Source of the DNA: Oryzomonas sagensis
GTDB lineage: Bacteria > Desulfobacterota > Desulfuromonadia > Geobacterales > Pseudopelobacteraceae
Length of the DNA: 64,000 nucleotides
Assembly (NCBI RefSeq): GCF_008802355.1
Contig: NZ_VZRA01000001.1
Span: 1,234,525-1,298,524 of the forward strand
Direction: 5' to 3'
In this document: positions 18,951 to 22,253 of the stretch, piece by piece
Layout: the number at the start of each line of letters is the position of its first letter
Numbering within the stretch: position 1 is the first letter of the stretch
Position numbers and translations under genes: made by a program
Notes under the pieces: generated by a model
The model's database searches: none
Seen by the model: only the letters and a program-made list of their open reading frames with translations
What the model was told of the DNA's origin: nothing

Positions 18951-19877
18951 ATGGCCATATCGTTTCGACAACTGGAAATATTCGAGAAGGTCGCCCAGAC
19001 CGGGCATGTCACCCGGGCAGGGGAAGAGCTTCTGTTGACCCAATCGGCCATCAGTATGGCCGTGTCGCAGCTTGAGCAGTTCACCGGAGCCCCCCTGTTC
19101 GAACGCTCCGGCCGGAGGTTGATCCTGAATGACCGCGGGCGCTTGCTGCTTGCGGAGGCCGGGGGGATTCTCCAGGCGGTCCGGCGGATGGAACAACTGC
19201 TCCGGAAGGATGGCGGGGAGCTTACCGGCGAATTGCTGGTGGGGGGGAGCACAACCATCGGCAACTACCTGCTCCCGGCGCTCTTGGGCGCTTTTGCCCG
19301 GATGTACCCCAAAACCAGGGTTCAGCTGCGGGTGGGGAACACCCAGCAGGTGGTGAGCTGGATGGAGGAGGGGCGGTTGGACATCGCCTTTATCGAAGGT
19401 CCGTGCCACAGCCGCGGGATGATCGCCACCCCTTGGCGCGACGATGAACTGGTGGTGGTGGCCGGGCCGGAGCATGCCTGGGGCGGGGGACGCAAGGCTA
19501 CGGCGGAGATGCTGGCTTCGGCTCCCTGGGTCATGCGGGAACGGGGTTCGGGAACCCGTGAAGTCTTTGAGACCGCAATGGATAACCTTGGGATCCACTA
19601 TTCCATAGCGCTGGAGCTTGGCCATACCGAGGCGATCAAGAACGGCGTTGCCTCGGGACTTGGGGTGAGCTGCCTTTCGCGCCTGGCCGTCCATCGCGAA
19701 CTCGAGCATGGCTGGCTCGTCCCGATTGCGAGCCCGTTGGCGCTCACACGTTCCCTGGCGCTCATCAGGCGCCGTGAAAGTTTCCGCACGCCGCTGCTAT
19801 CCGCATTCCTCGAGGTCGCGGAGGGGGCGTGGGACGGCGCCGATTCTGCCGGGAGCGCTGCCGCCCTTCCCGGATAG
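18951..19877 (+). CDS. LysR family transcriptional regulator
   Basis: This 308-residue regulator has an N-terminal winged helix-turn-helix (residues 3-62; ISFRQLEIFEKVAQTGHVTRAGEEL split over the first two helices). A periplasmic-binding-like effector domain follows from about residue 90 (LLVGGSTTIGNYLLPALL). The subgroup looks like the CysB/CysL/YeiE type of sulfur or anion regulators, but this is only a resemblance. It is divergent from pal and no obvious target operon is adjacent. No clear ribosome binding site precedes the ATG, so the start is somewhat uncertain. Confidence 0.88.
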   Translation: MAISFRQLEIFEKVAQTGHVTRAGEELLLTQSAISMAVSQLEQFTGAPLFERSGRRLILNDRGRLLLAEAGGILQAVRRMEQLLRKDGGELTGELLVGGSTTIGNYLLPALLGAFARMYPKTRVQLRVGNTQQVVSWMEEGRLDIAFIEGPCHSRGMIATPWRDDELVVVAGPEHAWGGGRKATAEMLASAPWVMRERGSGTREVFETAMDNLGIHYSIALELGHTEAIKNGVASGLGVSCLSRLAVHRELEHGWLVPIASPLALTRSLALIRRRESFRTPLLSAFLEVAEGAWDGADSAGSAAALPG

Positions 19878-19948
19878 CGGGACAGCCCTGTGCGGGGGGC
19901 GTGGTTAACGTTTTGCAAACAAACGGCTCTTTGTGGTATTGTTTTCCC

Positions 19949-20452
19949 ATGAAAAAGATGCTCAACCAAAACGGTTTTACCTTCCTGGCCGCGCTGATGA
20001 TCGTGGTCATCATGGGGATTATGCTCGGTCTTACCGGGCAGCCGTGGAAAACGATCATGAAGCGCGAGCGGGAACAGGAGCTGCTCTTCCGCGGCCTCCA
20101 GATCAGAAGCGCCATTATGGCCTGGAACGCAAAATCTGCAAAAGTGACTCCGCTCAACGACCTGAAAGACCTGTTGCTGGACCCCACTTCCCTGGAGAAG
20201 AAGAAATATCTGCGGCAACTCTATAAAGACCCCATGACCGGCAAGGATTGGACGCTCATTAGAGACAAGACCGGCGTGAAGGGGATTATCGGGGTGGCCA
20301 GCACCAGCAACGATGTGCCGCTCAAGACCTCGTTCTCGGAATACTCCGGCCTCGACACCTTTACCGACAAAAAAAAGTACAGCGAATGGCGTTTCGTGTT
20401 CGGGACCGATCCGGGGCCGGACCTGACGACTATCACCCCCCAGTCCCCGTGA
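19949..20452 (+). CDS. Type II secretion / type IV pilus-like pseudopilin
   Basis: This 167-residue protein has a short basic leader ending in NQNG, then FTFLAALMIVVIMGIMLGL, the prepilin peptidase site and hydrophobic stalk of type IV pilin-like proteins. Residue +5 after the cleavage site is not glutamate (FTFLA), which is atypical and seen in some minor pseudopilins. The C-terminal part contains a KDPMTGKDWTLI-type motif found in general-secretion-like pseudopilins. No other secretion gene is nearby, so it is an orphan. It has its own terminator. Confidence 0.72.
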   Translation: MKKMLNQNGFTFLAALMIVVIMGIMLGLTGQPWKTIMKREREQELLFRGLQIRSAIMAWNAKSAKVTPLNDLKDLLLDPTSLEKKKYLRQLYKDPMTGKDWTLIRDKTGVKGIIGVASTSNDVPLKTSFSEYSGLDTFTDKKKYSEWRFVFGTDPGPDLTTITPQSP

Positions 20453-20567: not shown

Positions 20568-21017
20568 CTATTTATTATGTCCTTTTCCTCTTCCTTTCCC
20601 TTTACCGGGCCCGTCACTCCCCCCGCCATCAGGAGTGCCGGTAAGGGAAAAATCGCCCCGTTTAAGGGCGTGGAACTCTCGTGAACCCGGTTTGATCCCC
20701 ATTTCTTTGGCAATAACGCCCCACCCCTTGCCGCGATTTTTCTGATAGGTGCGGACAACTGCATCAGGAGCCTGCCGGGTCATGTGACCGAGCTGATAGA
20801 CCATGAAGGCATCGGCCGGCTCCTTGACCGTGTTGATTACGGCACTGACCTGGGCCCCGGGGATGCCGAACTGGGTGCTAAGCCTGGCAGTAAAACCGTT
20901 CATATCGGCCTTTGCCTGGATATTGAGGTTGGAAAGAAAACCTTCGAGGCCCCCCGATGCGCCAGCTGGGCTGAATGCGAAAAAAACCGCCACTGCTGCA
21001 AGATAAATCATTTTCAT
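20568..21017 (-). CDS. Exported hypothetical protein, glycine/lysine-rich C-terminus
   Basis: This 149-residue protein has a clear signal peptide (MKMIYLAAVAVFFAFSPAGA) and a helical body. It contains the phrase GKGWGVIAKEMGIKPGS, which resembles exported proteins common in Geobacter-like genomes. The last 20 residues are Gly/Lys-rich. An AAAGGA ribosome binding site lies 8 bases before the ATG. It is 118 bases downstream of the riboswitch-controlled DUF4382 gene on the same strand, so the two could be co-transcribed. The function is unknown. Confidence 0.65.
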   Translation of the reverse strand: MKMIYLAAVAVFFAFSPAGASGGLEGFLSNLNIQAKADMNGFTARLSTQFGIPGAQVSAVINTVKEPADAFMVYQLGHMTRQAPDAVVRTYQKNRGKGWGVIAKEMGIKPGSREFHALKRGDFSLTGTPDGGGSDGPGKGKGRGKGHNK

Positions 21018-21135
21018 TGTGAATTCCTTTCCCCGGCTGATTAGGAGTGGGATGGTCCGGATGAGCTATCGTCATTGCCCCTTGAACGGGGGCCCCCTTC
21101 CGGCAGGCCCCGGCTCACAAAGCGGATTTTCTGCA

Positions 21136-22104
21136 CTACGGCCCGAGCTGGACGAGGCCGTTTGGCGGGACAGCCGTATCAACCCCCCCGGTCACGGTCA
21201 GGAGTGGCGAGGAGTAGAGGTTGAACGTGGGGACCGTCGACAGCGTGTCCCTGAACGCTCGCACGAACACCCGGTAGTGCGCCGAGGGCATGACGGCGCT
21301 GTTGTTCGGCGGCACAAACGCGCTGAAGGCCGTCTTCCAGACGCTCGGGCTGCTGAAGTTGCTGAAGACGACCCCGGAGGTGACCGCGCTCCCGGCGGGG
21401 TCGCGGGGCACAACCGTCACGGTGGCGCTCGACCACGGAGCGAACTGCGGCGAGCGGATCGTTCCCGATAGTGAACCGGCATTGGTCAGGGCGTTGAAAA
21501 CCTGGATGATGCGGACGCCGGTCGGTTTGAGGTTGATATTACCTGAATTTCCCGCAAAGACAATCGCTTCATTCGGGTTGAAGTCGAGGACGACGGTATT
21601 CAGGGCCCCTGCCGTTACCGTGAAGTTGCCCTTGATCTTGAGCCCGCTCTCCTGGGCGCTCGGTGTGGTCAGGGGAAGCTTCTGGGCGGGGGCGGCCGAC
21701 AGGGTGACATAGTTGTTGAGCGTCGGGCTGTTGGGCGCCAGTATGAGGCGGACCTGGCTGTAGCTGCCGGCGGGGATTGCGGTGGTCCCCAGGATCTGCG
21801 GCAGGAAATGCAGGTTGAGGATGTCGACGCCTACGCCTCCCGGGAAGGCGGCGATCACCGGCAGGGCGGGATCGTTATCCGCCAGGCCTTCCTTGCCGGT
21901 CGGGACAACCACCACCTTGTCGATCGTCAAATGGACACTGTCCAAATTCGGGAAGGCGGGGCTGTCCGTGATCCCGACCCGGAGCGTCCCCGTGTTGGCG
22001 GATGTGGAACCGTCTCCGCTGCATCCCTGCATCTGCCCAAGCCCCAGAAAAGCCGCTGCAAGAAGAACCGACGATACAAGGCGCGTTAGGGAATTCTTAT
22101 TCAT
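21136..22104 (-). CDS. DUF4382-type lipoprotein under riboswitch control
   Basis: This 322-residue exported protein has a signal sequence ending in MQGC (C28), which looks like a lipobox, followed by a Gly/Ser/Thr linker. The region from GTLRVGITDSPA through VHLTIDKVVV matches the DUF4382 beta-sandwich fold, and NLKPTGVRIIQVF ends it. The remaining 110 residues look like a second carboxypeptidase-regulatory-like beta domain (LSGTIRSP onward). It is probably surface- or periplasm-facing. Its mRNA leader carries a GEMM-I riboswitch, which links it to cyclic dinucleotide signalling. A GGAGGAC ribosome binding site precedes the ATG. Confidence 0.75.
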   Translation of the reverse strand: MNKNSLTRLVSSVLLAAAFLGLGQMQGCSGDGSTSANTGTLRVGITDSPAFPNLDSVHLTIDKVVVVPTGKEGLADNDPALPVIAAFPGGVGVDILNLHFLPQILGTTAIPAGSYSQVRLILAPNSPTLNNYVTLSAAPAQKLPLTTPSAQESGLKIKGNFTVTAGALNTVVLDFNPNEAIVFAGNSGNINLKPTGVRIIQVFNALTNAGSLSGTIRSPQFAPWSSATVTVVPRDPAGSAVTSGVVFSNFSSPSVWKTAFSAFVPPNNSAVMPSAHYRVFVRAFRDTLSTVPTFNLYSSPLLTVTGGVDTAVPPNGLVQLGP

Positions 22105-22148
22105 GGCTGTCGTCCTCCGTACTGTTTTTGACGTCTGAAGACCATACG

Positions 22149-22253
22149 AAAAAAGCCGGGTTGCCAATATCGCGTGATATTTCGGCAACCCGGCTGTCTC
22201 GGTAAGACCCTTGGGCTTTCCGCCCCATCCTCGCGGATGGTTGAGTAGTATCG
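22149..22253 (-). promoter_or_regulatory. GEMM-I riboswitch, probably cGAMP type, with overlapping terminator
   Basis: Read on the - strand, the aptamer (22253 to 22181) shows the GEMM-I landmarks: ACUCAACC, a GAGGAUGG hairpin, GGGGCGGAAAGCC and AGCCGGGUUGCCGA. By eye alignment to the Vibrio Vc2 aptamer, the base equivalent to G20 is A. The pair 21-46 is C-G instead of G-C, as in the cGAMP-responsive Geobacter subclass. The 3' side of the aptamer (AGCCGGGUUGCC) also forms the left arm of a terminator hairpin (22195 to 22154) followed by six U residues. Ligand binding should therefore prevent termination and switch on the DUF4382 gene. Confidence 0.88.

Follow-up and report, generated by a model that had tools for sequence, protein, structure and literature searches.

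The leader of a DUF4382 lipoprotein gene on the minus strand of the window, as we call the whole 64,000-nucleotide stretch of DNA analysed here, is very probably a GEMM-Ib ON riboswitch that lets the gene be read when 3',3'-cGAMP is bound. This leader harbours a GEMM-I aptamer with an A at position 20 and an overlapping terminator, DUF4382 genes throughout the order are linked to such aptamers, and the genome encodes Hypr GGDEF proteins. The identification of cGAMP as the ligand follows from the characterised Geobacter switches and is thus by analogy, and we infer that the target gene is expressed and that the lipoprotein is located at the cell surface.

A GEMM-I aptamer with an overlapping terminator precedes the DUF4382 gene

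When searching with Rfam cmscan, positions 22256-22181 of the minus strand matched the c-di-GMP-I family (RF01051) with 41.7 bits against a gathering score of 35. The E value was 9.4e-5 when the 64 kb were searched against all 4227 families and 1.2e-6 in a whole-genome scan with this single family. With this covariance-model score above the cut-off and the terminator that overlaps the aptamer, the GEMM-I landmarks that a preliminary description had placed in this leader (about 22260-22149) were borne out. The alignment also confirmed the A at the position of Vc2 G20 and the C-G pair 21-46 proposed there: the aptamer (22260-22175, minus strand) is of the A20/C21-G46/A47 (GEMM-Ib) type, with C21 at 22245, G46 at 22220, A47 at 22219 and, at 22246, the A in position 20, the base linked to selectivity between cGAMP and c-di-GMP (PMC6456294). 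Alignment with Vc2 additionally gave a U22-G45 pair. The Vc2 reference was used for the 5' half only; as it is one base too long near the 3' end, position 92 was taken from the Rfam alignment, which places the ligand-pairing C92 at 22185. P2 is capped by a GNRA tetraloop (GCGA, 22234-22231).

The expression platform is an intrinsic terminator at 22195-22149 (minus strand), whose hairpin (22195-22155) and T-run fold with -29.4 kcal/mol (z = -7.9). Both C92 and the 3' strand of P3 fall within its 5' arm (22194-22184). Just 5' of the aptamer lies a promoter-like site, TTGACT-16-TAAAAT (22302-22275, minus strand), which agrees with the consensus at 10/12 positions; one such site was found where 0.6 were expected. 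The site is kept as TTGACT...TAAAGT in Oryzomonas japonica Red96, to which the DUF4382 gene and its flanks are 94% identical. O. japonica is described as an iron-reducing member of the Geobacterales (PMC7285026).

In the proposed mechanism, transcription would begin shortly before 22260, after which the aptamer would fold around 3',3'-cGAMP, with A20 favouring this ligand over c-di-GMP. Binding would keep the 3' strand of P3 and C92 inside the aptamer and thereby block the terminator, so that RNA polymerase would continue into the DUF4382 gene, whereas without ligand the terminator would prevail. In the pilM cGAMP switch of G. metallireducens the terminator sequesters the ligand-pairing base, and cGAMP prevents termination (PMC9262584). 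Because the terminator in the window covers C92 as well, the same ON logic is suggested, a direction that rests on the architecture and on the characterised relatives.

We regard it as extremely improbable that the match arose by chance or marks a decayed aptamer, with the DUF4382 gene expressed independently of it. Such a reading could draw on the RF01051 score, which is among the lower ones in this genome, and on two of the closest DUF4382 homologues, 58% (same genus) and 72% identical (a Geobacteraceae MAG), which have no riboswitch and which we counted against the switch. However, the terminator and all ligand-contact positions checked are intact, and both aptamer and terminator are kept in the O. 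japonica leader. Moreover, in 15 orthologous leaders from DUF4382 genes, pairing holds for 98.7% of the cells of the GEMM-I structure, compared to 36-48% with slid partners, and compensatory changes occur in P1, P2 and P3 (helices 1, 4 and 6); covariation is modest because many pairs are invariant. With a model built from the DUF4382-linked set, which includes the window sequence itself, the aptamer scored 103.5 bits.

The DUF4382 gene is a conserved target of A20-type switches

The collection of DUF4382 genes covered 76 genomes at family level and 119 at order level, and the loci of these genes were scanned for GEMM-I. Genes for which both the start and the upstream DNA were present in the sampled sequence were considered evaluable (n=42). 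A GEMM-I aptamer was found before 36 of these 42 genes, in three families of the order, although this is not an independent count, as the sample favours the highest-scoring genes per search and the species are related. By group, the linkage was seen in 15/18 genes of the own family, 21/23 of two other families and 0/1 in the MAG with the 72% identical protein. All 36 aptamers have A20, C21-G46 and A47. In 27 cases no other gene was seen between aptamer and DUF4382, and the distance from aptamer to start codon is 39-88 bases (a range computed for all of these but L080). The other nine all belong to a single genus, and there the switch and DUF4382 are separated by the gene for a small exported protein (about 90-110 residues, with a Lys/His-rich tail).

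Given about 20 such switches among a few thousand genes per genome, the linkage is far from chance. Its extent, and the A20 in every linked aptamer, indicate that the lipoprotein is a conserved target, and mark the DUF4382 family, as judged from sequence, as a strong candidate core output of the cGAMP response. The proposal that a cGAMP-type GEMM-I switch controls the lipoprotein gene is thus supported by comparison, together with the GacA-like candidate synthase described below.

The intervening protein of the nine loci (L119, L125, L126, L129 and L131-L135, at about 970-1390 on the gene strand) has the pattern VNIxLNGYxPAPPGVxIYY...VYLKKxK...HHxxGKKKGHKKHH. In four of these loci a second GEMM-Ib switch follows DUF4382.

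The genome has many A20 switches and candidate cGAMP synthases

The 3.6 Mb genome contains 20 RF01051 matches over the cut-off and one RF03167 place (contig C7), giving 21 aptamers. According to the alignment, 16 of them have A20 and five have G20, and all 16 of the A20 type also carry C21-G46 and A47. Two G20 aptamers, C2:254256-254331 (L003) and C2:256455-256538 (L006), share their C21-G46 pair with the A20 type and are intermediate between the subclasses. The A20 riboswitches also form three tandem pairs (C2:28762-29059, C2:430782-431003 and C1:870740-871040), resembling the layout described for the omcAHG leader of G. sulfurreducens.

The putative source of cGAMP is L046, a REC-GGDEF protein with the Hypr serine (GHLVGSQVL), whose GGDEF domain has its best match in the structure of G. 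metallireducens GacA (6D9M, E 2e-67). L046 is therefore a GacA-like Hypr GGDEF protein, a known type of cGAMP synthase, and the activity is predicted here. In three further Hypr candidates, L045, L049 and L057, serine replaces the canonical Asp. L057, a HAMP protein, combines GGDDF with the serine, as GSU1937 does (PMC8835794); L045 and L049, a GAF-GGDEF and an HDOD-GGDEF protein, are candidates for extra cGAMP synthases. These genes would provide what a cGAMP switch needs, which is in itself no proof of binding. In G. sulfurreducens, deletion of gacA lowers the expression of all genes behind GEMM-Ib switches (PMC6456294).

The switch could instead sense mainly c-di-GMP, or both dinucleotides, despite its A20, which we consider unlikely. 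The Rfam family of the match is that of c-di-GMP-I, and position 20 is a selectivity factor and not an absolute filter. At least one switch of G. sulfurreducens, OmcST, is reported to answer to both ligands (PMC6456294). In addition, five other GEMM-I aptamers of the genome carry G20, so that both signals are probably in use. On the other hand, A20 is present in 36/36 of the DUF4382-linked aptamers, and A20G is the very change that made the Gmet_0970 GEMM-Ib switch select c-di-GMP instead of cGAMP (PMC6456294). The four Hypr-type GGDEF genes likewise argue for cGAMP, which remains our preferred ligand.

Other A20 switches of the genome precede genes for an L,D-transpeptidase/SPOR lipoprotein, an outer-membrane beta-barrel protein, a small His/Lys-rich exported protein, and proteins that carry fibronectin type III or bacterial Ig domains. 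The general theme of the A20 regulon is the cell surface. Lipoprotein transpeptidases and extracellular cytochromes are among the targets of GEMM-Ib switches in G. sulfurreducens (PMC6456294). Behind the A20 aptamer L009, at L028:5944-6237 (genome C1), we observed a small exported protein with the tail KHKGHYKKHYKKHEHKDKHHRD; its layout resembles that of the small exported Lys/His-rich protein of the nine DUF4382 loci, and it had no BLAST match.

Properties of the DUF4382 lipoprotein

The target gene (22104-21136, minus strand) is the only DUF4382 gene in the genome. It encodes 322 residues with a lipobox (MQG-C28) and matches DUF4382 (PF14321) with 97.2 bits against a cut-off of 25 (E 1.3e-27). 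The lipobox Cys28 and the preceding glycine are invariant in 19 homologues, and the haem motif CXXCH was found in none of these sequences. Neither the lipoprotein nor the 149-residue protein encoded downstream contains a known electron-transfer domain or haem motif. Of the surface or electron-transfer role envisaged earlier for both products, the surface part fits the theme of the regulon, whereas electron transfer was not indicated by the proteins themselves, and for either product it is only suggested by the regulon.

The structure model of the lipoprotein is weak (pLDDT 55), with an unreliable C-terminal third, and gave no Foldseek match at E <= 0.001. VIA-align found Bacteroides fimbrillin-type proteins as best hits (Z 7.6 and 7.2); this likeness of the model is within the range of common beta-sandwich arrangements and serves only as a lead. 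A PDB profile search found nothing firm (best E 0.018). Speculatively, and with odds rather against it, DUF4382 may be an order-wide core cGAMP effector, an outer-surface adhesin-like lipoprotein that would be turned on with genus-specific small exported proteins with cationic (Lys/His/Gly-rich) tails, so that cells stick to mineral particles when they respire metals.

Possible read-through into the downstream gene

As had been described, an exported protein with a Gly/Lys-rich tail is encoded downstream (21017-20568, minus strand; 149 residues), starting 118 bases after the DUF4382 stop. It had no Pfam match, none of the NCBIfam families reached its cut-off, and its model, all-helical and of moderate confidence (pLDDT 65), gave no significant fold match. 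The two genes could form one operon and both respond to cGAMP, which is compatible with the main reading and to which we assign a reasonable chance, though a little below even. They share a strand, and the gap between them has neither a T-run terminator nor a promoter-like site at the threshold used, and the gene order is kept in O. japonica. In the nine loci of the one genus, a single GEMM-Ib leader stands before both DUF4382 and a small exported protein of another kind, rich in Lys/His. Against co-transcription, the gap contains a GC-rich hairpin without T-run (21125-21050, minus strand), an inverted repeat that is near perfect in O. japonica (L102:3975-4050, z -5.4) and weaker in the window (z -0.2). 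Furthermore, the family of the 149-residue protein occurs in 21/76 genomes, and its gene adjoins DUF4382 only in the window genome and O. japonica; elsewhere the two are far apart or on different contigs.

No GEMM was found at 19 loci of relatives of this gene, which therefore have their own promoter there. The suggestion that the 149-residue protein is a second target was thus not supported by comparison, and we rejected it as a conserved target of the switch (0/19), while read-through into it in the window is possible. At its N terminus, the product of the convergent gene at 19829-20452 (plus strand) weakly resembles the motif of type IV pilins or pseudopilins, with a Pfam N_methyl match (E 0.099) that does not reach the cut-off.

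Comparison with known systems

In Geobacter, cGAMP controls growth on insoluble iron oxides, and many of its targets are genes of unknown function. The linkage of DUF4382 to the switch in 36/42 loci singles out one gene for deletion studies.

Three known groups can be compared with the aptamer in the window. The c-di-GMP-I-GGC family (RF03167), which we tried as a better family and rejected, is similar in P2/P3 sequence, but the score of 39.8 bits is far below its cut-off of 59, and the contact bases differ: positions 20 and 47 are both G in its consensus, whereas the window aptamer has A20 and A47 and so does not share the GGC identity at the ligand contacts. With the canonical c-di-GMP-I riboswitches of the Vc2 type (RF01051) it shares the sequence and structure of the family at a score above the gathering score, but it has A20 instead of G, and C21-G46 instead of G21-C46. 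The closest likeness in these features is to the Geobacter GEMM-Ib switches (Gs1761/pgcA, Gmet_0970 and pilM of G. metallireducens), which share the GEMM-I fold, A20, a transcription terminator overlapping P3 and C92, a GacA-type Hypr GGDEF encoded in the same genome, and exported targets. In contrast to these, the target here is a DUF4382 lipoprotein and the host is an Oryzomonas-like, iron-reducing bacterium of soil, and the ligand and direction would be the same by analogy. The type of switch is thus already known; earlier target lists may include DUF4382, and what is added is its order-wide link to DUF4382, along with a predicted extension of the GEMM-Ib/Hypr pathway to Oryzomonas-like bacteria.
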